Shown piece by piece: positions 11,861-32,113 of a stretch of 33,632 bases of DNA (positions are counted from its first letter, which is position 1; each line of letters opens with the position of its first letter). Under the pieces are notes generated by a model. The model was not told where the DNA came from. It saw only the letters and a list, made by a program, of their open reading frames with translations, and did no database searches. Both the position numbers and the translations under genes were made by a program. Source of the stretch: Burkholderiales bacterium (GTDB taxonomy: Bacteria; Pseudomonadota; Gammaproteobacteria; Burkholderiales; Thiobacteraceae); contig JAUXTZ010000080.1 in assembly GCA_030681095.1 (NCBI GenBank), forward strand, positions 1 through 33,632, in the 5' to 3' direction.

Positions 11861-11861
11861 T

Positions 11862-12524
11862 TCATTCGTCCTTGAGTTTTTCCATGTGCTTCAGATCGAG
11901 ACTGTCGAAGGCTTCGCGAATCTGGAAGAAGAAGATGCCGAGAATAAACATCCCCACCAGCACATCCAGCGCAATACCGAGTTCCACCACCAGCGGCATG
12001 CCGTAGGTGGCACTGGTCGCGGCGAAGAACAGGCCGTTTTCCATGGCCAAAAAGCCGATCACTTGCGGGATCGCCTTGCGCCGCGTCAACATCATCAGGA
12101 ACGACAACAGCACGATGGCGATGGCGATGCCCAGCGTGCTGCGCGTGATGGTGCCAGCAAGTTGCGTAATCGGCAGCGCCAGATTGAAGGCGAAGATCAC
12201 CAGCATGATGCCGACCAGCATGGTGGCGGGAATGTTGATGAGCGTTTCCACATCCCACTTCACATTCAACTTGCGGATCAGGCGATGCAGAATCCACGGC
12301 AGGATAATGACCTTCAATACCAAAGTTAGCGCGGCCGAGTAATACAGATGCTGCTGCTGCGTGGTCATGGCGACGACCAGGGTGCTGATCGACAGCACCA
12401 AACCCTGCCAGGCAAACAAATTAATCAGGGACAGCACGCGCCGCTGCGACAGCATGGCGAACGAGATCAACAGCAGTAGCGCCGCCAGCAGGTTGATCAA
12501 TTGTCCGCTTAGGGTTGCCGACAT
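11862..12524 (-). CDS. HyfE-like (NuoK-related) membrane subunit
   Basis: Hydrophobic 220-aa protein, LINLLAALLLLISFAMLSQRRVLSLINLFAWQGLVL...VIGFLAMENGLFFAATSATYGMPLVVELGIALDVLVGMFILGIFFFQI, in Hyf gene order. Confidence 0.88.
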   Translation of the reverse strand: MSATLSGQLINLLAALLLLISFAMLSQRRVLSLINLFAWQGLVLSISTLVVAMTTQQQHLYYSAALTLVLKVIILPWILHRLIRKLNVKWDVETLINIPATMLVGIMLVIFAFNLALPITQLAGTITRSTLGIAIAIVLLSFLMMLTRRKAIPQVIGFLAMENGLFFAATSATYGMPLVVELGIALDVLVGMFILGIFFFQIREAFDSLDLKHMEKLKDE

Positions 12525-12525
12525 C

Positions 12526-13479
12526 TCAGGCTCCCAGCAGAAAATGGATGAGCATGCCCAATACCGCGAGCAGGAAAGCGGTGCCCAGGAATTCTGGCGC
12601 GCGGAAGATGCGCATCTTGGCCGAAATCGTTTCCAGCAGCGCGAGACCGGCGCCGGCCGCTACCAGCTTTATGCCGAGTGCGGCCAAAGCCAGCGGCAAG
12701 GCGGCCCAATTGCCCGCCTCGGCAATGCCATAGGGCACAAACAACGCGAAACCGATGGTGGTATAGGCCAGCAGTTTAATGCTGCTCGCCCACTCGATCA
12801 GCGCCAGGTGGCGCGCGGAGTATTCGAGGATCATCGCCTCGTGGATCATGGTGAGCTCGAGATGGGTGCTCGGATTATCCACCGGGATGCGTGCGTTTTC
12901 CGCGAGCAGAATCATCACGAATGCGATCGCGGCGAACGCCATGCTGGGATAGAGCGCGAATTGCGTATGCGCTAAGGCTTCGACGATGGTCGGCAATTGG
13001 GTGGAGTGGCTGATCAGCGAAGCGGTGAAAAACACCATCAACAGCGCGGGTTCGGCCAAAAACGCGACCAACATTTCGCGCCGTGCGCCCATGGTGCCGA
13101 AGGAAGTGCCGATGTCCATCGCCGCGAGCGCGATGAACACCCGCGCCAGGGCGAAAATACCGACCAGCGCGATCACGTCGGCCGCCGGTGAAAAAGGCAA
13201 ATCAGTCGCCAACATCGGCACCACGCCGGCTGCCAGCCACATGCAAGAAAATAGAATATACGGCGTCACCCGGAACAAAGGCGAAGCGTTGTACGCGATC
13301 ACCGCATCCTTATGAAACAGCTTGCGCAGGGTGCGATACGGTTGCAGCACACCCGCGCCGGTGCGGTTTTGCAGCCAGGCGCGGCACTGATTGACCCAGC
13401 CGAGCAGGAGCGGCGCGATCACCACCACCAGCAGCGACTGGAATAATTGGAACAGAATGCCGGATAGTTGCGCGCTCAT
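12526..13479 (-). CDS. HyfC/NuoH-like membrane subunit
   Basis: MSAQLSGILFQLFQSLLVVVIAPLLLGWVNQCRAWLQNRTGAGVLQPYRTLRKLFHKD...ARIPVDNPSTHLELTMIHEAMILEYSARHLALIEWASSIK. Start moved to 13479; ATGA overlap with the upstream gene stop (13476-13479). Confidence 0.92.
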   Translation of the reverse strand: MSAQLSGILFQLFQSLLVVVIAPLLLGWVNQCRAWLQNRTGAGVLQPYRTLRKLFHKDAVIAYNASPLFRVTPYILFSCMWLAAGVVPMLATDLPFSPAADVIALVGIFALARVFIALAAMDIGTSFGTMGARREMLVAFLAEPALLMVFFTASLISHSTQLPTIVEALAHTQFALYPSMAFAAIAFVMILLAENARIPVDNPSTHLELTMIHEAMILEYSARHLALIEWASSIKLLAYTTIGFALFVPYGIAEAGNWAALPLALAALGIKLVAAGAGLALLETISAKMRIFRAPEFLGTAFLLAVLGMLIHFLLGA

Positions 13480-15503: not shown

Positions 15504-15536
15504 GGTTTGTTTTTATACTTTCAAGCTGTGCTGCAT

Positions 15537-17663
15537 TCAGGTCGCGCCACTCGCCGGGCGCAGCAGGCAAAACTCGGTATTAGCATCGATTTCGCACACT
15601 TGGCGATAAATCACTTCAAGCGCCATATCTTCTGTGGCGAAGATGTTTTCCTCGCCGATCAACTGGCGCAGGCCGGTATGTTCCATGACATCCAGCACTT
15701 GTTTTTTTAAGCCGCTAAACAGCAGCGTTACACCGGTGTCCCGCAGCCGTTCCACCAAGTGATGAATGACTTCCTCGCCCGAAGCGTCGAGCTGGTTGAT
15801 GCCGTCGCCCACCACCAGAATGTGCTTGGCCTTGGGGTGATCCGCCGCCGCTTCCAGAATCGCGTCTTCGAAGTAGGCGACGTTGGCGAAGTAGAGCGAA
15901 CCGTCGAAGCGGATCGCCACCACATACTCGCTGGTGGGCAGATTATGCACTTTGACATCGCGCAGCGTGCCATCGGCGTGGCGGCCGAGAATCGCGACGC
16001 GCGGCGTCATGGTGCGCAGCAGATAGAGAATGATCGCGAGTCCAGCGCCAACCAGGATGCCGTTGTCCAAATGCGGGGCGAATGCCAGCGTGGCAACGAA
16101 GGTGACGACGGCTGCGATGCCGTCATGCTTGTGCGCGTGCCAGGCATGTTTGATTGCCTTGAAGTTGATCAGACCCACTACCGCCATCATGATCACCGCC
16201 GCCAACACCGCTTGCGGTAGGTGATACAGGAGCGGTGTCAGGAAGAGTAAGGTCACCAGCACAATCAGGCCGGTATAGACGGAGGACATGCCAGTCTTGG
16301 CGCCGGCGTTCAAGTTCACCGCCGAGCGCGAGAACGAGCCGGATACCGGGAAAGATTGCGACAGGCTACCCACTATATTGGCGATGCCCTGACCAAGCAA
16401 TTCTTGATTCGGGTCGATGCGCTGCTTGGTTTTGGCGGCCATGGCCTTGGCGATGGAGATCGCTTCCATGAAGCCGACCAGCGAAATTACCAGCGCGCTG
16501 GAGAGCAGGGTGCCGATCAACTCCCAACTGATTTTGGGCAGGGCAAGGCTAGGCAAGCCGGAGGGGATGCTGCCCACCACTTCGCCGCCGCCGACGAGCT
16601 TGATTTCGCCTTGGCCGATTTTTTTGATGCGCCAGCGATGGCCATCGGATTTCAGCTCGCGCGGCGCCTGGCCGTGGAGATATAAGCGATCGGATTCACC
16701 CGCGCCGCCTGGCACGCGCTCGAGAATAAATTTGCGCAGCGCCCGGTTGCGCTTGCGGTTTTCCGCTTCCAGATCCGTCAAACTCAGGCGCAGCAACTCG
16801 ACCTCATAATGCAGGGCGGCAAGGTGCTGGTTGCTTTCCTTCTCAGCTTTTTCCTGGGTTTTAATCGCAGCCGATTTGGTGCTGATTAGCTGATTGAGCT
16901 CGCCGATTTTTTGTTCAGTGATCGAGAAGTCGCCGGCGAGTGAGCGGACTTCGCTGTCCATGATCTGCTCGACTCGGCCCACGCTGTTGCGCTCGAAGCC
17001 GATGGAAAAACTCACGACCGTGGTCAGCGTCACTGCGATCAATACCCCGGGCAATTTCGGCGCGTATTTCTTCAGCCCCCACATGATGGCGAAGGCGGAT
17101 ACGCCCATGAGCAGGGTCGGCAGATGGGTTTCACCAATTTGCAGCAGCACGCCCCATATGTCATTGATGAAATGCTCGCTGCGCCCCATGGAGACGCCAA
17201 AAATTTTGTTGAGCTGCGACAGGCCGATGATGATGGCGGCGGCATTGGTAAAGCCGACAATTACCGGGTGCGACAGGAAATTCACCACCACGCCGAGCTT
17301 GAATACACCCAGTGTCAATTGCACGATGCCGACCATCAGCGCCAACAGAATAGCGAGCGCGACGAATGCCTCGGAGCCGGTCGCGGCGAGCGGCGCCAGC
17401 GCGGAGGCGGTCAAGAGCGAGGCGACCGCCACCGGTCCGGTGGCCAACTGAGCCGACGAACCCCATAGTGCGGCGATGATGCCCGGCAAGAATGCTGCAT
17501 AAAGACCGTAATAAGCGGGCAGGCCTGCCAATTGCGCGTAGGCCATAGATTGCGGGATCAGCACCAGGGCGACGGTGATGCCGGCGATCAAGTCGGCGCG
17601 AACCATCTCGCCGCGCATCGGGAACCAGTTCAGGAAGGGCAGAAATCGGACAACGAAGCTCAT
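15537..17663 (-). CDS. SulP family anion permease with STAS domain and a large internal hydrophilic/coiled-coil insertion
   Basis: VRADLIAGITVALVLIPQSMAYAQLAGLPAYYGLYAAFLPGIIAALWGSSAQLATGPVAVASLL...SFPVSGSFSRSAVNLNAGAKTGMSSVYTG; C-terminal STAS with INQLDASGEEVIHHLVERL. Start moved to 17663 (MSFVVRFLPFLNW). Confidence 0.93.
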   Translation of the reverse strand: MSFVVRFLPFLNWFPMRGEMVRADLIAGITVALVLIPQSMAYAQLAGLPAYYGLYAAFLPGIIAALWGSSAQLATGPVAVASLLTASALAPLAATGSEAFVALAILLALMVGIVQLTLGVFKLGVVVNFLSHPVIVGFTNAAAIIIGLSQLNKIFGVSMGRSEHFINDIWGVLLQIGETHLPTLLMGVSAFAIMWGLKKYAPKLPGVLIAVTLTTVVSFSIGFERNSVGRVEQIMDSEVRSLAGDFSITEQKIGELNQLISTKSAAIKTQEKAEKESNQHLAALHYEVELLRLSLTDLEAENRKRNRALRKFILERVPGGAGESDRLYLHGQAPRELKSDGHRWRIKKIGQGEIKLVGGGEVVGSIPSGLPSLALPKISWELIGTLLSSALVISLVGFMEAISIAKAMAAKTKQRIDPNQELLGQGIANIVGSLSQSFPVSGSFSRSAVNLNAGAKTGMSSVYTGLIVLVTLLFLTPLLYHLPQAVLAAVIMMAVVGLINFKAIKHAWHAHKHDGIAAVVTFVATLAFAPHLDNGILVGAGLAIILYLLRTMTPRVAILGRHADGTLRDVKVHNLPTSEYVVAIRFDGSLYFANVAYFEDAILEAAADHPKAKHILVVGDGINQLDASGEEVIHHLVERLRDTGVTLLFSGLKKQVLDVMEHTGLRQLIGEENIFATEDMALEVIYRQVCEIDANTEFCLLRPASGAT

Positions 17664-17785
17664 CTTTGGACGCTCAGTAAAGGGGTTTCTGCTTGGACGG
17701 CGAATAACGCAGGCCATTGACAAAAAACCGCGATTTTATCAGACGCCACCCCTTAGAGGAAAGTGACGCGCAGAATCCAACAGCG

Positions 17786-19582
17786 CTATGCGCGGGGCGA
17801 GCCGTCAGGCAGGGCGGTCTGACACTCTTTGAAGATGCGGGCTCGGCAATTGCGGCAAATAGCCACATCAAGCCTCGTATAAATCGTCTCAATGGGACGT
17901 GATTTCGTTGGGAAGATGTTTTCATCCCCCACATCGCGGATGTAAGGCCCTTTGCGCAGCGTGCCGCAGACCGATTCCTTGATCCGGTAGAAATACAGGC
18001 CACCGCCTATTTTCTCGCGTCGCCGCGCTTCTTGCGCCAGCATTTCAGCACCGGCGATGTCGATGAAGTTAACCCCGGACGCGACGATCAATACATGCTT
18101 TTGCTGCGGATCATGCTCGCCGATTTCGTGCAGCGACTGTTGGACATGATCGACCGCGCCGAAAAAGATGGAACCGTTGATACGCACCATTTTCAACTGA
18201 GGACATTCTGGGTGGCCTGCGGCATCGATGTAGTGATAGCTGTCTGGTTCGGGGTCCGGCACAACGGCCTGCACTTGCGGGCGCGAAGTGCGATAAAGAT
18301 AGAACATGAGCGAAAGCAGGATGCCGAAGAAAATTCCTTTTTCCAGATTGATCAGCGTACCGATCAGCGTCACCCACAAGATCACGCTTTCTGCGCGGCT
18401 GGCTTTGGCAATTGCGATGATGTGGTGAAAATCGATCAAGCCCCAAGCCACCAGGAACAACAGCCCGGCCATGGCGGCATTGGGCAAATAAGCGGCGAGC
18501 GGCGCAACCAGCAGCAAAACTACCAATAGAAAAATCGAGGCGAACACGGCAGCCAGCGGGGTCTTGGCGCCGGAAGCGTAATTCACGCCGCTGCGATTGA
18601 AAGAGCCGCTGGAGGCATAGCCGGAGAAAAAGCTACCGATGAAGTTGGACAGGCCTTGGCCGATGAATTCCTGATTGCCATCGATGCGTTGTTCCGATTT
18701 CACCGCGACCGAGCGCGCGATGGATACCGCTTCGGTCAAGGCGAGCATGGTCACCACCAGCGCCGGGAAAATCATATGGCGAATCGCGTCGAGAGAGAAA
18801 TCGGGGTGCGAGAAGGGCGGCAGATGTGCGGGCAGCGCGCCGATGGTTTTAATGCCGGTCTGTGCGAGCCCACCGAAGAAATCATTTAACAATAGTGCAG
18901 CCAGACTACCGATGATCATCGCCACGATCATATAGGGAAGCTTGGGGATGAATTTTTTGACCAGGATGCCCGAGAGCAATGTCAGTGCCGCCACACTAGC
19001 GACATAGGGATTGATGTTGTCGATGTGTAGCGCGAATAGCTTAAGCGTGTCAAAAAAAGGCGTACCGCGCGGAATATCAACTCCGAAGAAATTGCGTATC
19101 TGGCTTCCCGCAATCAACATTGCCGCACCGGCGGTGAAGCCGATCACCACGGTGTGCGAGATGAAGTTCACCAACGCCCCCATGCGTGCCAAGCCCAAAA
19201 TCAATTGGAACACGCCGGTGAAAAAGGTCAGCGTCAACACCATGCCGATGAAATGCTGGCTGCCTGGTTCCGCGAACGGGCTGACTGAGGCAAACACCGC
19301 AATCGAAATCGCGGTGGTGGGGCCGGAAACTAAGTGCCAACTCGAACCGAACAGCGCGGCAATCACGGCCGGCACCATCGCCGCATACAGACCATATTCT
19401 GGCGGCAGCCCCGCGATGGTGGCGAACGCCACGCCTTGCGGTAGCACGATCAACGCGCCCGTCAGGCCCGCTGTCAGATCGGCACGGGTCGTCGTGCGGT
19501 CCACCATCGGCCACCAGCGCAAGAAGGGGAGCAGCTTATACAGCCACAGGGGGCAAGCCGGTAATGCGTTTAACTTTGACAA
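17786..19582 (-). CDS. SulP family anion permease with STAS domain and C-terminal Cys cluster
   Basis: TTRADLTAGLTGALIVLPQGVAFATIAGLPPEYGLYAAMVPAVIAALFGSSWHLVSGPTTAISI...YASSGSFNRSGVNYASGAKTPLAAVFA; STAS domain; tail CRNCRARIFKEC. TTG start (rc of caa at 19580-19582). Confidence 0.93.
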   Translation of the reverse strand: MSKLNALPACPLWLYKLLPFLRWWPMVDRTTTRADLTAGLTGALIVLPQGVAFATIAGLPPEYGLYAAMVPAVIAALFGSSWHLVSGPTTAISIAVFASVSPFAEPGSQHFIGMVLTLTFFTGVFQLILGLARMGALVNFISHTVVIGFTAGAAMLIAGSQIRNFFGVDIPRGTPFFDTLKLFALHIDNINPYVASVAALTLLSGILVKKFIPKLPYMIVAMIIGSLAALLLNDFFGGLAQTGIKTIGALPAHLPPFSHPDFSLDAIRHMIFPALVVTMLALTEAVSIARSVAVKSEQRIDGNQEFIGQGLSNFIGSFFSGYASSGSFNRSGVNYASGAKTPLAAVFASIFLLVVLLLVAPLAAYLPNAAMAGLLFLVAWGLIDFHHIIAIAKASRAESVILWVTLIGTLINLEKGIFFGILLSLMFYLYRTSRPQVQAVVPDPEPDSYHYIDAAGHPECPQLKMVRINGSIFFGAVDHVQQSLHEIGEHDPQQKHVLIVASGVNFIDIAGAEMLAQEARRREKIGGGLYFYRIKESVCGTLRKGPYIRDVGDENIFPTKSRPIETIYTRLDVAICRNCRARIFKECQTALPDGSPRA

Positions 19583-19880: not shown

Positions 19881-22589
19881 ATGATCACAGAAACAAACAC
19901 AGTCAACGTCGCGTCCACCCCTTTCTCCCAGGTTTTTGCGGCTGAGCTGGCAGCGATCGCACCAGCCGATGGCGTCGCCTCGGGTGGTCAGCGCCCCTTA
20001 TGTGGCTTGGCTTTTTCGGGGGGTGGCATCCGCAGCGCGACGTTTAATCTGGGCATCATTCAGGCGCTATCCGAATTAAAGCTACTGCGACATTTTGACT
20101 ATCTTTCTACTGTCTCCGGCGGTGGTTATATCGGCGGATGGCTGTCCGCCTATATCCATCGTTGCGCCAATGGCGATGTAAAAGAAACCGAAGCTCGACT
20201 CCACACCGGCGGTCAAGAATCCGCCATGGTGCGTTTCCTGCGCAGTTACAGCAACTATCTGACGCCGCGCATCGGTTTGCTTTCAGCGGACGCATTGACG
20301 GGGGCGGCAACCTATATCCGTAATCTTTATCTCAATCTTTCGCTGCTTTTGTTGTACTTGTCCGCGCTGTTGATTGCGCCGCGCATCCTGGTGTGGGGCG
20401 GGCGCTGGTTGGCGGGATGGGAGGGCGAGGCTGCGGTGATAGCGGGGCGCACCGATCCTTTATTCATTCTTTCGGGTGTTTGTATCAGCGTGGCCATGCT
20501 GTTTGTTGGCCTCAATCTGGGCGGCGGTACCAGGCGCCATGTGCGGCCCCCGTTCTACACGCGCCAAGGCTGGATCTTGGCGCTGGTGGTCGCACCGATT
20601 TTGTTTTCCGCTTGGTTTTTAGCCTATGGCCTGTATGTAGGATCGAGCCGCTTAGCCACGATATCGAACCTGGAATGGATCGCGTGGGGGACGGCCGCGT
20701 ATCTTTTTCCCTGGAGTCTCGGCTGGATTGCGGGACGCTGGTGTAATCGCAACGATCCGGATCAATTGCATTTCGGCGCCGGCCGCATGCTGTGGATGAT
20801 CCTGTACGCGCTGGCTGCCGCCGCCCTCGGCGGCTTGCTGCTGTCGGTATTTGCGGATTGGGCAGATTGGTTGCACCAGTATGGCTACAGCGGGTCCTGG
20901 ATTGTCTCTGCCCTCGGTACCGCCCTCATGCTGAAGTTTTTTTCGTTGACGGTGATGGTGCATATTGGCCTCATGGGGCGCGATTTTTCCCATGAGTCGC
21001 GCGAATGGTGGTCGCGGCTGGGCGGCTGGATTCTTTTCTTCGCTTTTGCCTGGGGCCTGGTGTTCACCATCGTGTTCATCGCGCCTGCTTTTTTCAAATG
21101 GGCACAAGTGTGGCTGCTCAGCACCGGCGCCGCTACCTGGGTAGGCGCGACCGCAACTGGTATCGTGTTGGGGCGTAATCCGCGCACGGGTTTGCTGCAC
21201 AATAAAAGCTGGCGCGATCGCGTGGCCACCGTTACCCCTTACATTTTTATTATCGGTCTTTTAGGTTTAATGTCGTGGGGGCTGCAAGAACTGCTGCTGC
21301 GTTTTTTCTGCAGCAGTTGCGCGCTCATGCAATATGAGCCGGATGCGAATTTTTTAAGTATCTTGCTCAAGGAAGCGAGCTATTTTAAAGCGGTGCCGAT
21401 TGAGACGCTGGCTTCTCTTGTCGCCGCTTGTTTGCTCGTCGCGAGCTTATTGGCACTGCGCGTGGACGTCAATTTATTTTCGATTTATTACTTTTATCGG
21501 CAGCGTTTAACGCGTTGCTTTCTGGGGGCCTCGCGTTGCGAGATGCGTGAACCGCATCCCTTTACCGGTTTCGACCCCGACGACGATTTATCTTTGGCGG
21601 CATTGTGCCGGACCGTCAATGGCAAGACCGTGTGCCAGCGGCCCTATCCGATTCTCAATGCGGCGATGAATATGGTGCATGGCAAACAGTTGGCATGGCA
21701 GGAGCGGCGTGCAGCCGCGTTTGCGTTCACGCCGCTGTTTTGCGGTTACGACTTCCTGCTGCCGGACGAGAAAGGCCAGCTGGTCAGCCACTATCGTCCC
21801 AGCACCCACTACCTGGAAGGGGTCAAGCTGGGGTCGGCGATGGCCATCTCCGGCGCCGCCGCCTCGCCCAATATGGGTTATCACAGTTCGCCCGCGCTGA
21901 CTTTTTTGATGACGGTGTTCAATGTGCGGCTTGGCCATTGGAGCGGCAACCCAGCGCATCCCGAGATGTGGCCCTGCCAGAGCCCGCGTTCCGGCAGTAA
22001 ATATTTGTTCAAGGAGTTGTTGGGGCTGACGGATTACGATTCGCCGTTCATTTATCTTTCCGATGGCGGGCACTTTGAAAATTTAGCCATTTACGAGTTG
22101 GTGCGGCGCCGCTGCCAAAATATTCTGGTGGTGGATGCCGGCGCCGATCCGAACAACACTTTCGATGATTTGGGCAACGCGATCCGAAAATGCTATGCCG
22201 ATTTTGGCGTCGTCATCGATATCCAAGTAGAGCCCTTGAAACAAGATAAGTCGGGCCAAGTGGCCGGCTATTGCGCGGTGGGCGAGATTCGTTATGCCGA
22301 CGCCCCACCCGGCACGTTGATTTATATCAAACCGGGTCTGATCGGCACGGAGTCCGCCGATTTATTGAACTATGCACGCACCCATGCCGGCTTTCCGCAT
22401 CAACCCACCACCGATCAGTGGTATGACGAATCGCAATTCGAAAGCTACCGGAAATTAGGACATAGCATCGGCAAACACGTATTAGAGGCAGCCTTGATCG
22501 ATACCCATAATCGTCGCAAGCAAAGCGGCGACAGCACGCCGCTCATGCCTTATTTGTTCGACGTGATGCGCGAACGCAGCCGGGCTTGA
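19881..22589 (+). CDS. Polytopic membrane protein with patatin-like phospholipase domain
   Basis: LCGLAFSGGGIRSATFNLGIIQALSELKLLRHFDYLSTVSGGGYIGGWLSAYI (oxyanion GGGIRS and nucleophile motif) and FIYLSDGGHFENLAIYELVRRRC (Asp-Gly-Gly); about 9 hydrophobic segments in between. Confidence 0.87.
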   Translation: MITETNTVNVASTPFSQVFAAELAAIAPADGVASGGQRPLCGLAFSGGGIRSATFNLGIIQALSELKLLRHFDYLSTVSGGGYIGGWLSAYIHRCANGDVKETEARLHTGGQESAMVRFLRSYSNYLTPRIGLLSADALTGAATYIRNLYLNLSLLLLYLSALLIAPRILVWGGRWLAGWEGEAAVIAGRTDPLFILSGVCISVAMLFVGLNLGGGTRRHVRPPFYTRQGWILALVVAPILFSAWFLAYGLYVGSSRLATISNLEWIAWGTAAYLFPWSLGWIAGRWCNRNDPDQLHFGAGRMLWMILYALAAAALGGLLLSVFADWADWLHQYGYSGSWIVSALGTALMLKFFSLTVMVHIGLMGRDFSHESREWWSRLGGWILFFAFAWGLVFTIVFIAPAFFKWAQVWLLSTGAATWVGATATGIVLGRNPRTGLLHNKSWRDRVATVTPYIFIIGLLGLMSWGLQELLLRFFCSSCALMQYEPDANFLSILLKEASYFKAVPIETLASLVAACLLVASLLALRVDVNLFSIYYFYRQRLTRCFLGASRCEMREPHPFTGFDPDDDLSLAALCRTVNGKTVCQRPYPILNAAMNMVHGKQLAWQERRAAAFAFTPLFCGYDFLLPDEKGQLVSHYRPSTHYLEGVKLGSAMAISGAAASPNMGYHSSPALTFLMTVFNVRLGHWSGNPAHPEMWPCQSPRSGSKYLFKELLGLTDYDSPFIYLSDGGHFENLAIYELVRRRCQNILVVDAGADPNNTFDDLGNAIRKCYADFGVVIDIQVEPLKQDKSGQVAGYCAVGEIRYADAPPGTLIYIKPGLIGTESADLLNYARTHAGFPHQPTTDQWYDESQFESYRKLGHSIGKHVLEAALIDTHNRRKQSGDSTPLMPYLFDVMRERSRA

Positions 22590-22674
22590 AAAAGATGCGC
22601 GGCTTGCATTGTGAATAATGTCTTCTAAGGTTTGAATAGACAGGTTCTAAGGCAATCACGACAGGAGGTGGGGG

Positions 22675-25269
22675 ATGAAAATGAAATCGCCTATTTTGTG
22701 GGCAGCGATCGCGGCCACGGTGCTCATTGCCGTGAGTGTGGCCACCAAAAAACCGGTAGGATTGGCCGTCGCTGCCATTGCACCGCCCGCCACCGCCACG
22801 CCTGTTGCCGTGCCACCGGTAGCGAATCCCCCTGCCGCATCCGAGTCTGCAACGACGCCCTATACCGAAACCGGGTTCTACGAAGGCGAAGCGGGGCTCA
22901 CGCCGTCGCAGCGCGCAGGCCGCGAAATCTGGTATAAGGCCACGGCAGGGAACGACCGCTTCCACACCTACACGTTTCAGCAGCGCATCGGTGTATTGAT
23001 CGATTGGTATCGCGTGTTGCGTGCCGACGCGCGCGACCAGCGCTTCAAGACTTGGGGCTTGATCAACGATCCCAGTTGCTGCACACCCGGCAGTGCCAAC
23101 TGCCCGGCCAAGAGTCGCGATGAAACCTACGGTTTCGATTGGTGCCCGGGGGACGAAACACTGTTGAAATTTGTGGGTAAAGAAGGTTACCGCGACCCCG
23201 CCTGCGATTTTAAAGACGCGCCGCCGGAAGCGAGCGACCCACAGGGCCACCGCAATGGCCGGGAAAGCGCATGTTATTTGGCCTTCGGCACCTCGACCGG
23301 CGCCATGGGGCTGCGCAAATTTCCCAATCCGCGCTTCGACCCGGTTGCCTGGAAGAAATTGAACGGCAGCCTGGGAAGTTGGGAAGGCTACAACAGTAAA
23401 TTGAGTAGCGACGCGAACCGGGCCGACGCCAAAGTGAGCCGCTTAGGGGACGGCTCGATCGAGCCACCGTTTAGAATCGGCATGGCTTGCGGCACTTGTC
23501 ATATCGCCTTCAATCCCGCGAAACCGCCCGCAGACCCGGAGCATCCGCAGTGGGAAAATTTGCGCGGCTTAGTCGGCAATCAATATTTGCGTATGTCCGA
23601 GGTGATGGTTTCGGGCATGCATCCTCAAAGCCTGGAATGGCAAGTGTTCGCCCATGCCCGTCCCGGTACCTCCGATACCTCGGCCGTGCCGACCGATCAG
23701 GTGAACAACGCCGGCACCATGAACGCGCTCATTAATACCGCGCAGCGGCCTACCTTCCCCAATACCCAAGTGATCGCTTGGCGTAAAGCGGATGCCTGCT
23801 CCGCCGGTGCAAAGGATGGCGAGTGTTGGTGCGAACCGGGTAAGCCGGGCAAGTGCTGGCAACGCGGCTTAAAAGCCGAAACCGTGCATCACATTCTGAA
23901 AGACGGCAGCGATTCGACCGGCGCCCTGGGCGCGATTCAGCGCGTCTATTTCAACATCGGCTCCTGCGCCGAAGCCTGCTGGCTGAATCATCTGACCGAT
24001 TTGCGCCAGCTCGATCCCAATGCGCGCAACTTCGGCCAGACGCCGTTCAATCTCGGGCAGTGCCGGCGCGATTGCCCCAACTTCCGCGCCATGGAAGACC
24101 GCTTGCAAAACGTTTTGGATTTTTTCCTTTCGCCCGAGGGCAACGCCACCGATTTGCAGGTCGCGCGGGAAAATGGCCTCAAGCAAACTCAAGCCACGGC
24201 ACGTTATGAGCTGGACGATCTGATTGCCGATCTCGAAAAGCAATTCGGCCAAGACGCGGTGAGCCGCGGCCGTACGGTGTTTGTCGATAACTGCGCGCGC
24301 TGCCACTCCAGCAATAAAGAACCGTTCCAAGCGGTCGATTTCCGCGCCCTCGATCCCAAGAGTGGGCTGCGCGCCGACTGGCTGGGTAACGATGTGCCCG
24401 CACCGGTGTCCGAGATCGGCACCGATCGTTGCCGCGCGCTGCATTCCAATCATATGCAAGGCCATGTGTGGGAACAGTTTGCGTCAGAAACCTATCGCGC
24501 CAGGCCAGCCGACCCCAATATTCCTGAGCCGAATGGCGGCGGGCGTGGCTATTACCGCAATCTATCTTTGTTGAATCTGTGGGCGCATGCGCCTTTCATG
24601 CATAACAATGCCATTGGTCCGGAGCTGTGCGGCTGGGGCGAGCCCGGTCCCTATGAGCTCTACCGTTCCAGCTATGTCGATGCCAGCCAACCGGGCAAAC
24701 CGCCGCTGGCCAAAGACCGGCAGCCCGCTTGCTGGAAGTACGATCCGTCGGTGGAAGGACGCTTTAAATTGTACGTGGCGTCGATGCAAGATCTGCTGAA
24801 TCCCAGTCAGCGCATCCCCAAGGCGCTGAAATTGGATCAGGACATCGTGCTCGATATCGGTCCTCGCATCTGGGACGGTCAGGATGAAAAGCGGCTGGTG
24901 GGCTTTACCGTGCGCGTGCCAGCGGGCGCATCCGCGGGCAACGTCGGTAATTTCCAGCATAAGCCTTTCATCGGCGATCTGTTGGCGGCGAAACTGAAGC
25001 CGCAAGAACTGGAAAAGCGTCTGAGCGCGCGCGTAGGGTCGGCAAAAGCCAAGCAATTGGTGTTGGAATTACAAACCATCGGCAAAAGCATTGCTACCGA
25101 TCCCAGCCAGTTGGTAACGGCGGTAAAAGCCGCACGTGAGCGCATGCCGATTTTGTGGGAGGTTTATTCCTCTTGCACGGCCGAACTGGAAAACGAGGGC
25201 CATCGCTTCGGCGAAGATTTATCGCCGGCCGATAAAAATGCGCTGATCGCCTTCCTGGCAACCCTGTGA
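22675..25269 (+). CDS. Large diheme c-type cytochrome, RoxA/MauG-like (putative peroxidase/dioxygenase)
   Basis: N-terminal signal/anchor; CGTCH and CARCH; IEPPFRIGMACGTCHIAFNPAKPPADPEHPQWENLRGLVGNQY and GYYRNLSLLNLWAHAPFMHNNAIGPE resemble RoxA-type proteins from memory; preceded by RBS aggaggtggggg. Confidence 0.78.
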   Translation: MKMKSPILWAAIAATVLIAVSVATKKPVGLAVAAIAPPATATPVAVPPVANPPAASESATTPYTETGFYEGEAGLTPSQRAGREIWYKATAGNDRFHTYTFQQRIGVLIDWYRVLRADARDQRFKTWGLINDPSCCTPGSANCPAKSRDETYGFDWCPGDETLLKFVGKEGYRDPACDFKDAPPEASDPQGHRNGRESACYLAFGTSTGAMGLRKFPNPRFDPVAWKKLNGSLGSWEGYNSKLSSDANRADAKVSRLGDGSIEPPFRIGMACGTCHIAFNPAKPPADPEHPQWENLRGLVGNQYLRMSEVMVSGMHPQSLEWQVFAHARPGTSDTSAVPTDQVNNAGTMNALINTAQRPTFPNTQVIAWRKADACSAGAKDGECWCEPGKPGKCWQRGLKAETVHHILKDGSDSTGALGAIQRVYFNIGSCAEACWLNHLTDLRQLDPNARNFGQTPFNLGQCRRDCPNFRAMEDRLQNVLDFFLSPEGNATDLQVARENGLKQTQATARYELDDLIADLEKQFGQDAVSRGRTVFVDNCARCHSSNKEPFQAVDFRALDPKSGLRADWLGNDVPAPVSEIGTDRCRALHSNHMQGHVWEQFASETYRARPADPNIPEPNGGGRGYYRNLSLLNLWAHAPFMHNNAIGPELCGWGEPGPYELYRSSYVDASQPGKPPLAKDRQPACWKYDPSVEGRFKLYVASMQDLLNPSQRIPKALKLDQDIVLDIGPRIWDGQDEKRLVGFTVRVPAGASAGNVGNFQHKPFIGDLLAAKLKPQELEKRLSARVGSAKAKQLVLELQTIGKSIATDPSQLVTAVKAARERMPILWEVYSSCTAELENEGHRFGEDLSPADKNALIAFLATL

Positions 25270-25281
25270 GGAGACCTAATT

Positions 25282-26166
25282 ATGCGCATCCATAAAATCA
25301 GTGTCCTGCTCCTCCTGGCACCGTTGCTGCTTACGCTCACGGCTTGCGACAAAGTAAAAAGCCTATTCGCGGCTAAACCGCAGATCAGCTATGCCGCTGC
25401 CGGCGAGGCTTATGCGGAGAAACCGGATTTAGCGCAGGTGGAGTATCAGTACCCGATTGCCTTAACTGAACTGACCAAGGTGACACCGGCTTATTTAGCC
25501 TCGCTTAACCAAGAGCAGTTGGATCAACTTTATGCACGGCTGAGCGCGGGCCCGATTCCGAACGGGCCATTCGAGGGCGCGGTGGTATTTTATAAGGGCA
25601 GTTCCGGCCGCTTACGCGTGGCCGAAATCGTGGGCGGCTTAAAGGGTTTGGCCCTAGAGTTTAAGGCCAAGAAGGCCGAAATCATGGCCGAGACCTTGTG
25701 GAAGGGCAAAGTGTTTTACCGCGACCAGCGCGTGTTGCGCAACCGCATCGAAGATTTAGCCGTGCTGCGGCCGATCATCGGCACCGGCGCCATCGCCAAG
25801 ATCGATGTGGATGGCAAAGATGCGTGGTTGTTGTTCCCGGCGAAGCTGTATTGCGGTCAGAGCCTGTTGGATTCACGCCGTGAATCCGTCATCATCGATT
25901 ACGCCTATTCCGATGAGTTGCCCGGATACCGCGAGGTGCCTGATTTTCTGGCGGGCCGCAATGGCCTGAAAATACGTGACGAAATCCGCATGGTGCGCCC
26001 CGGCTTATATTTAGGCCGAGCCTATATGGATCACGTCTTCCTCCTGAACTTCGTTCTCTACAACAAATCGCTGGCAGCGCTGGGCGAGGCCGATTTCCTC
26101 GCCGGAAAAGTGAAAGAAGACTGTTGGCCCGGCACGCAGCCGCGCATCACCACTGCGGCGAAGTAG
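25282..26166 (+). CDS. Predicted lipoprotein of unknown function
   Basis: MRIHKISVLLLLAPLLLTLTAC signal with lipobox LTAC; begins 12 bp after the upstream stop; no family recognised. Confidence 0.75.
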   Translation: MRIHKISVLLLLAPLLLTLTACDKVKSLFAAKPQISYAAAGEAYAEKPDLAQVEYQYPIALTELTKVTPAYLASLNQEQLDQLYARLSAGPIPNGPFEGAVVFYKGSSGRLRVAEIVGGLKGLALEFKAKKAEIMAETLWKGKVFYRDQRVLRNRIEDLAVLRPIIGTGAIAKIDVDGKDAWLLFPAKLYCGQSLLDSRRESVIIDYAYSDELPGYREVPDFLAGRNGLKIRDEIRMVRPGLYLGRAYMDHVFLLNFVLYNKSLAALGEADFLAGKVKEDCWPGTQPRITTAAK

Positions 26167-28274
26167 TGCGCAGCTGGCAGCGCGCTCAATTCACGGCTCG
26201 CGGATTGACCACACGATGCGTCGAGAAAATCGCCCTATCGCTTACCGCCGCGCTCCGGCGCTTGCTGCCGCGCCTGGCGGCACTGTTGTTCGCAAGCTGC
26301 GCGATGTTGACGGCGATGCCTAGCCACGCTGAAGCGGATGTGCCGCCGCTGGGGCGTTCGCAGTTCGACTATCTCATCGGTCAAGCGCCAGTGCCGTTTC
26401 CTTTTGCGCATCTATTGCAGCTTATCAACGCGCAGTTGGCGCCCGAGCTGGGATTGCCGCCGGTAAAAGTGACATTGATTCCCTTGGGCCGATCATTGCA
26501 ACGGGGCGCGGGCGCGCCAGATTTTTTTCGTTATCCGCGCGTGGTGCTGGCGGTGGATGGCGAAGCCAAAGCGGGACAGGTGGCGCTCAAAGACCGCTTG
26601 TTTCTTGGCTATCATGAAAAAGCCGGGGTGTTGGAAGTGATTAGCTACAACGAAGCGGCCGGCCGCTTTGAGTTTCAAGTGGTGCAGGATTATCGCGCTG
26701 GCGCGCGCCCGAAAATTTATTATGCGCGGCGAGAGATTTGTCTTTCCTGCCATCAAAATCAAGCACCGATGTTCGCTCGTCCGCTGTGGGATGAAACCTC
26801 CGCTAATCCCGCTATCGCGGCACGTTTGAAAGCAGCCGGAGGCGATTTCTACGGTCTGAAATTAACCGGCACCGACGTCGCGTATTTAATCGACGCGGCG
26901 ACCAAGCGCGCCAACTTGATCCCCGTCTGGCAGCGTATCTGGCTCGAAGGATGCGGGGAAGGTGAAGCGGGCGATGCCTGCCGCAGTGCTTTGTTCAGTG
27001 CGGCGCTGCGCTATGGATTCTCCGGTGTGTTGCCTGATGCGACAATGTTAAAGCAGCTTGCGCCCGGCTTGGATCAACGCTTTGCACAGCGTTGGCCAAG
27101 GGGTTTCGCGATTCCCAATCCCGATCTTCCCAATCGCGATCCGCTCGCGTTGCTTGCGGGAAACGAAATTGACCTTGCGCGCGAAGGCTTGCCCTCTGAG
27201 CTGGCGACACTCGCGCATATCCCGGCGCGGGTCGAGCCGCTGAATGTGCGGCCGCCGCTTGAAGTGTGGGCCGGGCCTGAGAAAGCGCGCTTGATCGTGG
27301 GTCTGGCCAGCCTTCTGGATCGCAGCGATCTGCAGGCGCTCGACCAGGGCTTGGCTGCCAACGCGAGCGGCCAGCCGCAGCAAAGCGTGGCGCTCAGTTG
27401 CCGCATCCGCTACAAAGACGCGGCGCGACGCGCCAGCTTGCGCTGTGCGGGCCAAGGTGCGCGCTTAGCGGCCGCACTCTATTTTCAAGGGCGTAAAGCA
27501 CAGGGGAGGGTCAGCGAGATGATTGTGTCCGGCGCGCTTGCACCGACTGCGCTCACCCTATCGGGAGACACACCGCGCGTTGGACGTGCTGCCCATCTTA
27601 CTTTCCGCCGCGACGGATTGCGCGCGCGCCTGGCGGATGGCCGAGTCTTGGAGCAATTGGTTCTGTTACCGCGTACGACGGAGGAAGGGCCGGCGACACT
27701 CTTTATTCGCGACGATTTTGCCCGCGTCAACGCAGCCCTACAGAAAATGACACCTGGCCCCGGCGGGCCATTTCAGGCGCGGCTGTGGATGGCGCAACTC
27801 GCCGAGGCGCTGGGCTTGCCTTATCCGCAGCATGCAGCGCGCGCCATGCCCCCGATCCAAGTGCAGCCCAGCGTTGCCGCCCTAGTCGGCGGCTCGGGTA
27901 TGCAGGACAGTTTCCGTCGTTACTGCGGGCAGTGCCACGACACGGGCGAGCCTTTCCCCCCTAACTTTTTACAGGGCGAGGCGGCCCAGCTCACGGCCAA
28001 AATAGATCATTGCGCCGAGCGGATCTTCTACCGCTTGAGTATGTGGGCTGTCCCGGAGAATAAGCGCGGCAAGACGCCGATGCCGCCCACTTCCGCATTG
28101 CGGCAGCATGGCTTCGATGCCGAGCGTTGGGCGCGGGCGCCCGAGTTGGCCGGCTTGCGTGCTTATGTGACGCAAAGGCTCGCGGCCGAGGGCGATCCGC
28201 AACGCTTGTTGCGCCAGCCATTTGAAAGTTTGCGCCGCTGTATACCGCCGGCGGCTGCGCATGCCTATCCGTGA
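26124..28274 (+). CDS. Predicted secreted diheme c-type cytochrome protein of unknown function
   Basis: Signal-like LPRLAALLFASCAMLTAMPSHAEA; CXXCH motifs in REICLSCHQNQAPMFARPLWDE and RRYCGQCHDTGEPFPPNF. Start uncertain: TTG at 26124 or GTG at 26166. Confidence 0.75.
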   Translation: MARHAAAHHHCGEVVRSWQRAQFTARGLTTRCVEKIALSLTAALRRLLPRLAALLFASCAMLTAMPSHAEADVPPLGRSQFDYLIGQAPVPFPFAHLLQLINAQLAPELGLPPVKVTLIPLGRSLQRGAGAPDFFRYPRVVLAVDGEAKAGQVALKDRLFLGYHEKAGVLEVISYNEAAGRFEFQVVQDYRAGARPKIYYARREICLSCHQNQAPMFARPLWDETSANPAIAARLKAAGGDFYGLKLTGTDVAYLIDAATKRANLIPVWQRIWLEGCGEGEAGDACRSALFSAALRYGFSGVLPDATMLKQLAPGLDQRFAQRWPRGFAIPNPDLPNRDPLALLAGNEIDLAREGLPSELATLAHIPARVEPLNVRPPLEVWAGPEKARLIVGLASLLDRSDLQALDQGLAANASGQPQQSVALSCRIRYKDAARRASLRCAGQGARLAAALYFQGRKAQGRVSEMIVSGALAPTALTLSGDTPRVGRAAHLTFRRDGLRARLADGRVLEQLVLLPRTTEEGPATLFIRDDFARVNAALQKMTPGPGGPFQARLWMAQLAEALGLPYPQHAARAMPPIQVQPSVAALVGGSGMQDSFRRYCGQCHDTGEPFPPNFLQGEAAQLTAKIDHCAERIFYRLSMWAVPENKRGKTPMPPTSALRQHGFDAERWARAPELAGLRAYVTQRLAAEGDPQRLLRQPFESLRRCIPPAAAHAYP

Positions 28275-28298
28275 TTTTCTCGCTGACTGAGGCCCGTT

Positions 28299-29792
28299 AT
28301 GGAACCATCGACTAATCCTCCCCCGCCTGGCTGTGTACGGTGCAAGACCATTTTGATGTTGCTGCTGGTGATCTTGATACTGACTGGCTTTTATTTCTAT
28401 ATGCGTTTCGGTGGCGATCGCGCGCTGCAATTCGACGATCCGGTCATGCATTTCAAATATGGCTCGACCGGCGGCGATCGCAATATGGGCTTCCCGTATT
28501 GGGTATGGAAAGCCTTGCCGCAAGTGTGCAGCGAATTTCTACCCGGCAAAGGCTATGCATCGCTCGGCATGCTGTTCGAAGCGGGACAGGATTTGCCGGT
28601 CGGCATGTCGCTCCGCCATCACTTGGGCATGGACCGGGTATTTCTGAATTGTGCGGCGTGCCACAGCGCCACGGTGCGCGTTAAAGCCGACGCCCCGCCG
28701 ATGCTGATTGCCGGCATGCCCTCGCATCAATTGGATTTGATGGCGTTTCAGAAATTTTTCCAACGCTGTGCCAGCAGCGCTAAGTTCACCCCGGACCGTA
28801 TCATTCCCGAGGCGCAACACCTGGGGGCGAAGCTGGATCTGCTGGATCGCTATGTGGTTTACCCAATCGCAATCCATATGATGCGCGATCGCGTCATTGC
28901 CTTGATGGACAGGCTGCGCTTTATCAACACTGAACCGGATTGGGGACCGGGCCGGGTCGATACCTTCAACTCGGCGAAGGCGATTTTTAATTTCCCGATC
29001 GAACGCTTACCTAAAGAAGAGCTGTTCGGCGCATCGGACTTTCCCGCGATTTGGAATCAAGCCAAAAAACGCGGCATGCAATTGCATTGGGACGGCAACA
29101 ACGACCGGGTCGAAGAGCGCAATCTCTCGGCCTCATTCGGCACCGGCGCTACGCCGCCGATCATTGATCATGCCGCCATCGAACGTATCGAAGCGTGGTC
29201 CGCGACCGCCGCGCCGCCGGCTTTTGCGCAATATTATCCGGTGGATGCGACGCTTTCCGCCAAGGGCGCTGTGCTTTATCAACGCTATTGCGCCGACTGT
29301 CATGGCGCGAGCGGCAGCGATTTTAGCGGCAAGCTGGTTGGGCAAGTCACGCCGCTAACCTCCATCGGTACCGATCCCTATCGCGTGTATTCCTACAGCC
29401 CGGCATTGATGGTGAATCAGGGCACGCTGTATGCCGGCTATCCGCAATATCAATTCACCCATTTCCGCAAAACCTTCGGCTACGCCAATATGCCGCTGGA
29501 TGGATTGTGGTTGCGCGCACCCTATCTGCACAATGGCTCGGTGCCGACGCTGTGGGCGTTGCTACAACCGTCCCAGCAACGCCCCAAACACTTCTACCGC
29601 GGTAACGATGTGTACGATCCCCGGCAAGTCGGTTTTGTCAGCAGCGTTGCCGAACAGGGTGCGCAGCGCTACTTCAAGTACGACACCACTGTGCCGGGTA
29701 ACGGCAACCAAGGTCATGACGGGCCGGCGTATGGCACTGCTTTGTCCACTGCCGACAAATGGGCGCTGATCGAATATTTAAAAACTTTCTAG
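28299..29792 (+). CDS. Membrane-anchored diheme c-type cytochrome (MauG/RoxA-like C-terminal motif)
   Basis: N-terminal TM; CAACH and CADCH; MPLDGLWLRAPYLHNGSVPTLWALLQPSQQRPKHFYRGNDVYDPRQVGFVS. Confidence 0.85.
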   Translation: MEPSTNPPPPGCVRCKTILMLLLVILILTGFYFYMRFGGDRALQFDDPVMHFKYGSTGGDRNMGFPYWVWKALPQVCSEFLPGKGYASLGMLFEAGQDLPVGMSLRHHLGMDRVFLNCAACHSATVRVKADAPPMLIAGMPSHQLDLMAFQKFFQRCASSAKFTPDRIIPEAQHLGAKLDLLDRYVVYPIAIHMMRDRVIALMDRLRFINTEPDWGPGRVDTFNSAKAIFNFPIERLPKEELFGASDFPAIWNQAKKRGMQLHWDGNNDRVEERNLSASFGTGATPPIIDHAAIERIEAWSATAAPPAFAQYYPVDATLSAKGAVLYQRYCADCHGASGSDFSGKLVGQVTPLTSIGTDPYRVYSYSPALMVNQGTLYAGYPQYQFTHFRKTFGYANMPLDGLWLRAPYLHNGSVPTLWALLQPSQQRPKHFYRGNDVYDPRQVGFVSSVAEQGAQRYFKYDTTVPGNGNQGHDGPAYGTALSTADKWALIEYLKTF

Positions 29793-29802
29793 AGGAGCGA
29801 TC

Positions 29803-31236
29803 ATGTCAATCTGCAAATGCCCACGTTGGCTAAAAATTACGCTCGTCGTATTGCTGGTACTAGGCGCGGTAGGGGGCTTTACTGCTTGGTATAAATTTTT
29901 TCGCGAGGTGCCGCAGCCGGCCTTCGCCAACGCCGAAGAGCGCTTCAAATACGGCTCTATCGGCGGAGAAAACGAAGCCGGCCTGCCTTACTGGCTCTAT
30001 CTGGTACTGCCACGGCTGTTTCCGGAACATCTGCCCGGGCCGGGCGGCTACGCGAGCTTAGGACTGCCGTGGGAGCCGGGCCATGACACGCCGATCGGAT
30101 TTACCAAAAAAACGGTGGGCTTTCCGCGCGTGTCGCAAACTTGCGCGGTGTGTCATACCACGAGCTATCGCGTGAGCCATGATTCCAACCCCGTCTTTAT
30201 CCCAGCTGGGCCGGGACATACCACCGATATCCAAGGCTTCTTCCGCTTTCTCAAGAAAGCGGTGAACGATCCGCGCTTCAATGCCGACAACATCATGAGC
30301 GAGATCGCGATGGTGACTAAGCTGTCTTGGTTGGATCGGCAGATATATCGCTTTCTGTTGATTCCCATTACCCAACAACGCCTAAAAGAACAAAACTTTG
30401 ACTGGATGGAGCGGCCGCATATGCCGGGCTGGGGCCCCGGCCGCGACGACCCGATGAATCTCACCAAATATTTTATGCTGAATATGCCGGAAGACGGTAC
30501 CTACGGTCCGGCCGATATGCCATCGATTTGGAATCTGGATAAATACAAACCGGGCATGGCGCTGAATTGGGATGGCGCCACGTCGGTGCCGCGTTCGGTG
30601 ATTATCGACTCTGCGCTCGGGATTATGGTCAAACCGCAACGCGATTTTAAAGAGCAGATGCATTGGATGGAGAATTACCTGCGCAAACTGCCGGCACCAA
30701 AATATCCTTTTGCCCTCGATACCGCGCGTGCCGCGGTGGGCAAACAAGTATTCGATCGGCACTGCGCAAGTTGCCATGCATCGGAACGCACCGGACACTC
30801 GGTGCCGCTGGCGGAGATCAGCACGGATGATGAGCGCTTAAATTCGTGGAACAAAGAAGCGGCGATTAAAGCGAATCAAGTGGTGCGCGATAAAGGCGTG
30901 ATTCGCGATGGCATGGTGGAGCAGACCTTGACCGGCTATGTGGCCCAATTCTTAGACGGCATCTGGGCGCGCGCGCCTTATTTGCATAATGGTGCGGTGC
31001 CGACACTGCGCGATTTACTCACCCCACCGGCGCAGCGGCCCGCGGTTTTTTGGCGCGGCTATGATGTTTACGATCCGGTGCAGGTAGGTTTTATCACCCA
31101 GGGCCCGCAGGCCGAGCGCAATGGCTACCGCCACGATACGAACGCGCGCGCCAATAGCAATCGAGGCCACGATTTTGGTACGCGGTTACCTGAAACTGAA
31201 AAAAGTGCGCTGATCGAATATTTGAAAACCTTATAA
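29803..31236 (+). CDS. Membrane-anchored diheme c-type cytochrome, paralogue of preceding gene
   Basis: N-terminal TM; CAVCH and CASCH; LDGIWARAPYLHNGAVPTLRDLLTPPAQRPAVFWRGYDVYDPVQVGF. Confidence 0.85.
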   Translation: MSICKCPRWLKITLVVLLVLGAVGGFTAWYKFFREVPQPAFANAEERFKYGSIGGENEAGLPYWLYLVLPRLFPEHLPGPGGYASLGLPWEPGHDTPIGFTKKTVGFPRVSQTCAVCHTTSYRVSHDSNPVFIPAGPGHTTDIQGFFRFLKKAVNDPRFNADNIMSEIAMVTKLSWLDRQIYRFLLIPITQQRLKEQNFDWMERPHMPGWGPGRDDPMNLTKYFMLNMPEDGTYGPADMPSIWNLDKYKPGMALNWDGATSVPRSVIIDSALGIMVKPQRDFKEQMHWMENYLRKLPAPKYPFALDTARAAVGKQVFDRHCASCHASERTGHSVPLAEISTDDERLNSWNKEAAIKANQVVRDKGVIRDGMVEQTLTGYVAQFLDGIWARAPYLHNGAVPTLRDLLTPPAQRPAVFWRGYDVYDPVQVGFITQGPQAERNGYRHDTNARANSNRGHDFGTRLPETEKSALIEYLKTL

Positions 31237-31237
31237 G

Positions 31238-31338
31238 CTGCCTGACCTCCCATACCTAGCGCAGCACCACTGCGTGGCCGCTGCTTGCGGCATCGGGGTA
31301 GGCCGTCTAAAATACCCCGCAACGCCGCGTTCAGGCAG
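31238..31338 (+). other. Multi-hairpin intergenic element (candidate structured RNA/UTR)
   Basis: Closing pair CTGCCTGA (31238-31245) / TCAGGCAG (31331-31338) enclosing CGCAG-CACCA-CTGCG (31260-31274), GCCGC-TGCTT-GCGGC (31277-31291) and CGGGGTA-N12-TACCCCG (31294-31319). Confidence 0.4.
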
Positions 31339-31396
31339 TGCAAACAACAAAAGAAGCGCGTGCGATCCCGGTTTTTAAACCATCAATGAATAAAGA

Positions 31397-31723
31397 GTGA
31401 GGAAAATGAAGAAATACGCTATAGCCAGTCTGGTTCTCCTGGCTGCTGCGAGCGGCGCCGCGTTTGGCGCGGGCGATGCGGCGGCAGGCAAGAGCAAAAG
31501 TTCCATGTGCGCCGGTTGCCACAGCATTCCCGGCTACCGCACGGTTTATCCCGATACCTACCAAGTACCCAAGATCGGCGGCCAACACGCGAGCTATATC
31601 GTGAGCGCGCTCAAAGGCTACAAAGCCGGCGACCGCAAGCACGCCACCATGCGCGCCATTGCCGGCAGTTTGACCGAGCAAGATATGAACGATCTCGCGG
31701 CCTACTACGCCGAAGCCAAATAA
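31397..31723 (+). CDS. Small class I c-type cytochrome (periplasmic, monoheme)
   Basis: Signal peptide ending [79 protein letters not shown]. Confidence 0.92.
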
Positions 31724-31736
31724 CAGGACGAATAAG

Positions 31737-32063
31737 ATGAAAATACAAACGCTACTCGCAGCAACCTTATTCAGCGTGGCGATCAGCAGCCCAGCCTGGG
31801 CCGCCGGTGACGCCGCTGCCGGCAAGGAAAAATCCGCAGCCTGTGCCGCGTGCCACGGCCCGGACGGCAACAGCACCGTACCTGATTTCCCTAAACTCGC
31901 CGGCCAGAATGGGGATTATCTGAGCCACACCCTCAAAGCCTATAAAACCAAAGCGCGCACCAACGTGATCATGAACGGCCAAGCAGCGACCTTGACCGAT
32001 CAAGACATCGCCAATCTGGCGGCGTACTACGCCGGCCAAAAGGGGCTGTCGATTAAGCGCTAA
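31737..32063 (+). CDS. Small class I c-type cytochrome, tandem paralogue
   Basis: Signal peptide ending [75 protein letters not shown]. Confidence 0.93.
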
Positions 32064-32080: not shown

Positions 32081-32113
32081 AAAAAGCCCGAGGTGTTTGC
32101 TTCGGGCTTTTTT
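32081..32113 (+). terminator. Rho-independent terminator ending the cytochrome cluster
   Basis: AAAAAGCCCGA-GGTGTTTGCT-TCGGGCTTTTTT, 11-bp perfect stem with T-tract. Confidence 0.92.

Follow-up and report, generated by a model that had tools for sequence, protein, structure and literature searches.

A seemingly undescribed five-gene module with RoxA-related diheme proteins in proteobacteria and Nitrospira

Eight genes on one strand of a 33,632-nt contig of a Burkholderiales bacterium (JAUXTZ010000080.1; the whole stretch is called the window below) raise the question of whether a membrane patatin-like lipase, four diheme proteins, a lipoprotein and two small cytochromes form a single redox system, and what such a system might act on. 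A first-pass annotation had read them in this way. The positions, strand and lengths of the eight ORFs (Table 1) agreed with that annotation, except for the doubtful start of D716. The ten CXXCH motifs it had counted were all found, two each in D864, D716, D497 and D477 and one each in cA108 and cB108; this number is far above chance, as shuffled proteins of equal composition averaged 0.04 and never exceeded 1. The ORF of D716 is present, but the protein is probably shorter than 716 aa, because the TTG start at 26124 overlaps the lip294 gene and later in-frame starts exist (GTG at 26166, TTG at 26205 and TTG at 26262). The expected terminator is also present as a hairpin, but it stands after the cytochrome pair and not after the module described below. 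Upstream, at 10409-19582, two SulP transporter genes follow a minus-strand block of long hydrophobic ORFs, whose products by eye resemble proton-pumping dehydrogenase subunits.

Table 1. Features of the window, and loci of the related architectures (locus coordinates)
Feature	Position	Strand	Remark
pat902, membrane patatin-like acyl hydrolase	19881-22589	+	frequent, non-obligate module partner
D864, large diheme protein, predicted periplasmic, module hallmark	22675-25269	+	putative distant RoxA-superfamily member
lip294, lipoprotein, no Pfam family	25282-26166	+	lipobox LTAC; calycin-like barrel in AlphaFold2 model
D716, diheme protein, no known family	26124-28274	+	real start probably downstream of 26124
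D497, membrane-anchored RoxA-like diheme protein	28299-29792	+	NF040606, PF21419
D477, membrane-anchored D497 paralogue	29803-31236	+	Leu at RoxA Phe317 position
conserved leader of the cA-cB pair	31283-31396	+	right edge of module-free site
cA108, small class I cytochrome c	31397-31723	+	outside module
cB108, small class I cytochrome c	31737-32063	+	outside module
terminator-like hairpin and T tail, 3' of cB108	32081-32112	+	14 pairs
rhizobial operon, L110	3804-16156		
rhizobial operon, L111	3780-15688		
rhizobial operon, L112	3806-13253		no patatin
second D864 family with GMC, L069	15421-20183		
second D864 family with GMC, L119	8774-13513		
second D864 family with GMC, L120	6577-11073		
second D864 family with GMC, L122	7297-11389		

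A set of 100 related genomes was scanned for D864 relatives, whose neighbourhoods were searched with the window proteins by tblastn; a further search of this kind covered 80 named loci taken from a one-genome-per-species collection. The results showed that the true unit comprises five genes, D864, lip294, D716, D497 and D477 (22675-31236), whose order on one strand is unchanged over about 80 loci wherever the contig was long enough and the genes were present. A failure of synteny had been named beforehand as refuting the cluster; five of the eight genes proved to be syntenic across genomes. The view of all eight as one system has to be given up, since only the block from D864 to D477 is conserved and the cytochrome pair is unlinked and almost universal. 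The hosts are beta- and gamma-proteobacteria and Nitrospira, many of them bacteria of soil, water and sludge, and include Thiobacillus, Sulfuriferula, Thauera, Azoarcus, Aromatoleum, Zoogloea, Accumulibacter, Nitrosospira, Pseudomonas fluorescens, Azotobacter, Steroidobacter and Nitrospira.

Of 99 relatives, the source genome being excluded, 8 have D864; 7 of these also have lip294, which is missing from all 91 relatives without D864 (p = 5e-10), and D716 gave a similar picture. By clustering of the neighbourhoods, 88 loci have D864-like genes, 78 have D716 and 62 have D497/D477; the patatin (14 loci) was the sole additional gene family in at least 10 neighbourhoods. Pairwise protein distances of the five genes are correlated over 38 complete loci, partly owing to the common descent of the hosts, and for no pair did any of 300 permutations reach as high a value. 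D497 and D477 are absent from two Nitrosospira loci (L069 and L076) and from several Nitrospira loci (L088, L090 and L103); in the latter three their place is taken by a gene without Pfam match, accompanied in L088 and L103 by a Dyp-peroxidase-like gene.

In some lineages, other genes are inserted into the module (L021 5329-7616, L022 11433-13791 and L035 13486-15330). Where they follow D864, the inserts of this set encode a YncE-like beta-propeller lipoprotein and a FecR-domain protein; between lip294 and D716, the insert encodes a protein of the alpha-amylase family. Two recurring families of about 433 and 413 aa, neither with a Pfam match, adjoin the module or D864-like genes in L103 (15233-19292), L119 (13520-17529) and L039 (19976-22545); the Dyp-peroxidase-like protein of L103 is among these recurrent neighbours, and by eye the pattern in L119 is alike.

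The edges of the unit are best seen in G003, a genome of the same genus. There, the order is SulP (89% identical), patatin (70%), cA (98%) and cB (91%), and exactly the five module genes are absent, about 88 bases replacing window positions 22522-31283. The cA leader, which begins at about 31283, is about 90% identical in G003 and thus present without the module. From this site and the leader we concluded that the five-gene block was gained or lost here as one piece, with the small cytochromes outside it; the module is gained and lost as one unit. All 21 genomes that were checked for the cA108-cB108 pair have it, and most of them lack the module; in G006, 22 kb separate the pair from the module. 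The small cytochromes were on these grounds ruled out as electron acceptors of the module, and the "complete chain" to soluble carriers proposed earlier dissolves, the two being an independent housekeeping pair.

The same finding bears on another suggestion of the first-pass annotation, a route for electrons across the envelope. In detail, such a route would lead to an extracellular acceptor or from an extracellular donor, with D477 and D497 anchored in the inner membrane and D864 and D716 as the outer parts. The anchored paralogues would suit it, as would the several multiheme proteins of hosts like Thiobacillus and Nitrospira. However, the small soluble carriers are outside the unit, two hemes per protein are too few to span the envelope and RoxA-type hemes are catalytic. 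Neither a porin-like or decaheme partner nor another multiheme conduit gene recurs in the module neighbourhoods, in which no conduit of the MtrCAB/PCC type (porin plus multiheme partner) was found. We consider this explanation very improbable.

The claim that D497 and D477 are paralogous anchored diheme proteins was confirmed: cross-matches gave about 37% identity, and both are membrane-anchored and carry two CXXCH motifs. Pfam detected PF21419 (RoxA-like) in both, and both exceed the 150-bit cut-off of NF040606, "di-heme-cytochrome C peroxidase" (199.1 bits for D497 and 195.1 for D477). By sequence, they are thus assigned to the RoxA superfamily. This superfamily includes rubber oxygenases, which cleave polyisoprene, and the RoxC proteins, which lack both Trp302 and Phe317, show no rubber activity and have been suggested to oxidize fatty acids (PMC10837239); PA2077/PA2078 of Pseudomonas aeruginosa (10S-DOX and 7,10-DS) are fatty-acid oxygenases of the superfamily (PMC4496055). 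Phe317 of RoxA is given as essential in a passage of PMC4496055 that cites the original work.

The RoxA residues were mapped by aligning the D477 profile to the RoxA structure 4b2n. In this weak local alignment, the equivalent of Trp302 (W264) is Trp in 58 of 58 D497 proteins and that of Phe317 (F280) is Phe in 56 of 58; in the 55 D477 proteins the former site is Phe, Trp, Tyr or Leu and the latter always Leu. The MauG-type motif PYxHNGSVP is invariant in D497, its His being present in 58/58; in D477 this His is likewise invariant and is followed by NGSVP or close variants. The position of Phe301 is occupied by His in D497, so its pocket differs from that of RoxA.

With the rubber oxygenases RoxA and RoxB (4b2n; NF050033 and NF050034), the RoxA-type module proteins share two c-type hemes, the PYxHNGSVP motif and a GHDF-like heme ligand region at the C-terminus; by the weak alignment, D497 would also have the equivalents of Trp302 and Phe317. 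Differences are the N-terminal membrane anchor, the His at Phe301, the place in a multi-protein module and the scores, the best of which were 62.7 against the NCBIfam cut-off of 1000 for RoxA and 69.4 against 900 for RoxB. RoxC (NF051462) belongs to the same superfamily and is also envelope-associated; D497 and D477 score 75-78 against its cut-off of 900, and D497 appears to keep the residue pair that the tested RoxC proteins lack. FadCcp PA2077/PA2078, compared by description only, is likewise a RoxA-superfamily diheme pair encoded in tandem, but no lipoprotein, D864, D716 or patatin is described with it. PF03150 (CCP_MauG) gave no match at E 0.1 with D864, D716, D497 or D477. RoxA kinship holds for D497, D477 and, distantly, for D864, the protein that had earlier been labelled "RoxA/MauG-like"; membership of the MauG/CCP family is not supported for any of the four large proteins.

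These family matches also bear on the main rival to the reading that we prefer, a chain of peroxidases that would reduce H2O2 or lipid hydroperoxides with electrons from the quinone pool or cytochrome c, without any oxygenase step. D497 and D477 (not D864, with 29.9 bits, nor D716) pass the NF040606 cut-off, L088 and L103 of Nitrospira have a Dyp-type-peroxidase-like gene 3' of the module, and in L119 a gene of similar appearance lies 3' of a D864-like gene. Yet NF040606 is named from annotation rather than from assays, PF03150 is matched by none of the four large proteins, the putative Trp302/Phe317 pair of D497 would be an oxygenase feature (PMC10837239), and H2O2 removal needs neither a patatin nor a barrel lipoprotein. 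We judge the removal of hydroperoxides unlikely to be the function.

D864 has CXXCH motifs at residues 272 and 540, the motif WAHAPFMHNN and a C-terminal GHxFGxxL, and its MauG-type motif is altered. Its profile matched that of D497 with 94% probability and RoxA in four weak co-linear pieces, covering the heme regions and the MauG-type motif. In the weak local alignment to RoxA, Phe458 is kept in 18 of 22 proteins and no Trp stands at the Trp302 equivalent. Judged from these profiles, D864 is a putative distant member of the RoxA superfamily. A single-sequence search of the PDB for its identity gave only chance matches and was rejected.

D716 carries its two CXXCH motifs without a MauG motif, matched no known Pfam or NCBIfam family, and gave no match with E <= 0.001 in a fold search. 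It varies fast (mean identity 41%), and at about residues 381-491 of the aligned D716 an eight-stranded barrel is inserted, which is absent in Thiobacillaceae and Nitrospira relatives and whose fold weakly matched the barrels of dirigent proteins and Diels-Alderases. Two candidate identities were rejected: a Cti-type isomerase (PF06934), as there was no Pfam match and one Cti protein gave 0.6% probability against the D716 profile, and a relative of D497 or D864, to which D716 has no similarity. In lip294, the Cys22 of the lipobox is invariant. Its AlphaFold2 model (mean pLDDT 82) matched 4mve best (E 2e-4), and the next matches, weak ones with E of 0.02-0.2, were mostly retinoid(retinoic-acid)/fatty-acid-binding proteins and lipocalins; the model is suggestive of a barrel like those of lipid binders.

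It is also conceivable that D497 and D477 act as MauG does, turning conserved cysteines or aromatic residues of D864 or D716 into a protein-derived cofactor by long-range oxidation. The MauG-type motif of D497 and D477, altered in D864, the 22 cysteines of D864, many of them invariant, and the nearly constant encoding of these enzymes together would agree with this. Against it, D716 is fast-varying and missing from the rhizobial operon described below, the cysteines may be plain disulfides, and no precursor protein is evident. Such maturation appears quite unlikely to us.

The patatin-like protein pat902 scored 30.1 bits with PF01734 (cut-off 27.7). It resembles the bacterial patatin-like phospholipases of this family in GGGxR, the nucleophile Ser and the Asp of the dyad (DGG), and its GGGIRS, Ser79 and Asp728 are invariant in six homologues; it differs in that the domain is split into two halves by about eight hydrophobic, putatively membrane-spanning segments in the hydropathy profile. 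The description as a polytopic patatin-like lipase was thus upheld. By hydropathy, both catalytic halves should face the same compartment, which may be the cytoplasm.

Counting patatins of this kind at tblastn E <= 1e-20, we found one in 7 of the 8 module-bearing genomes and in 7 of the 91 that lack the module (Fisher p = 1.7e-6), or, counted by family, in 7/7 against 5/43 (p = 8e-6). Its position varies: directly upstream of the module in the window, G006 and Thiobacillaceae, directly downstream and overlapping the D477 stop in G037, downstream on the opposite strand in G032, about 8 kb downstream in G023, and on another contig than the module in G019, G025 and G081. Outside Thiobacillaceae, most loci have no patatin inside the fetched flanks. 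The proposed link to a membrane acyl hydrolase accordingly holds as a non-random co-occurrence, but the patatin is optional and may stand at either end or elsewhere. The co-occurrence, varied position and conserved residues support a functional but non-obligate partnership. That the patatin is a mere neighbour of unrelated function, and the module substrate not a lipid, is somewhat doubtful: module-free relatives have the patatin too, G003 at the very same site, and it is missing from the flanks just mentioned, but the co-occurrence is significant over 7 families, it persists through different placements, and a different patatin occurs in the rhizobial operon.

The patatins of the window and G003 (L123 7035-9803) are less alike than their neighbours (70% against 89-98%), hence the patatin is either fast-evolving or replaced. 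A patatin tree gave no placing of the module-free G003 patatin outside or among the module-linked ones.

A second architecture was found on rhizobial plasmids, which encode distant D864 relatives (about 27% identity over 90%). Its order is OYE, a D497 homologue (48%, to L081), a small membrane protein, a D477 homologue (41%), D864-like, GMC oxidoreductase and patatin; it is complete in pRL11 of Rhizobium johnstonii and in Sinorhizobium fredii, and a third Sinorhizobium lacks the patatin. D716 is absent, and a plasmid search with lip294 gave no match. No BLAST match was seen between the rhizobial patatin and pat902, so that independent recruitment is suggested. The function of this operon seems to be undescribed as well. 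D864-like genes were also found in four more of 299 genomes in the phylum: in L119, where the neighbours are GMC, a short lip-like protein and three other genes, one of which has a Dyp-like sequence pattern; in L120 with GMC; in L122 with GMC and a nearby patatin; and in L121 with D716. The second D864 family stands beside a GMC oxidoreductase in every locus seen, and in Nitrosospira it is a paralogue a few kb from the module.

Taken together, we infer, with a probability of roughly 0.4, that the module carries out redox chemistry on a hydrophobic substrate in the cell envelope, and that this substrate is most likely a lipid of the unsaturated acyl or isoprenoid type; this reading is the best one because enzymes of the superfamily are known to cleave polyisoprene and to oxygenate fatty acids. 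In such a system, the barrel of lip294 would hold the substrate or present it. D497, which appears to keep the residues of the RoxA oxygen heme, would most likely be an oxygenase or peroxidase, and D864 either the large partner of D497 or another diheme enzyme that has diverged, while D477 and D716 would shuttle electrons to or from the hemes of D497 and D864. The patatin, where present, would supply the module with fatty acyl chains that it releases from membrane lipid. The different patatin that ends the rhizobial operon supports a lipid. Against this reading stand the weak match of lip294 to known lipid binders, the weak alignment behind the RoxA residue mapping, the possibly cytoplasmic halves of the patatin, while the diheme proteins must be periplasmic, the seven genomes with a patatin and no module, the module loci without D497/D477, the His at Phe301 in D497, and the lack of rubber activity in RoxC of the same superfamily (PMC10837239). 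A wider version of the lipid reading, which we hold to be doubtful, is a widespread, undescribed bacterial oxidation of lipids resembling oxylipin formation, in which patatin would release, the barrel lipoprotein carry and the diheme proteins, from the RoxA superfamily and from a new family, oxygenate acyl chains in the periplasm, with a GMC/OYE version on rhizobial plasmids and a Dyp-like version in Nitrospira and others.

A literature search by component names, with subscription journals outside its scope, found no description of the module, so that the earlier impression of an undescribed system is maintained for this conserved, RoxA-related multi-diheme module. Its RoxA-type members belong to a known superfamily, and D864, D716 and lip294 are families of unknown function inside it. 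Biological roles in the superfamily are known for the rubber oxygenases and two Pseudomonas fatty-acid enzymes but not for RoxC and NF040606 proteins, and the module supplies partner proteins by which further substrates may be found. It occurs in cultured hosts, namely Thiobacillus denitrificans, Thauera aminoaromatica, Nitrosospira multiformis, Pseudomonas fluorescens and Azotobacter chroococcum, with a distant version in Rhizobium johnstonii 3841, and its function is therefore directly testable by gene removal.

TIR-domain proteins are encoded in or beside the module in L024 (4723-5892) and L025 (235-1851) and, by sequence clustering only, in L090 (10727-11437), and a caspase-family protein is encoded downstream in L096 (19812-20603). 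Near a module that can have a patatin, this mix is reminiscent of conflict or signalling systems.
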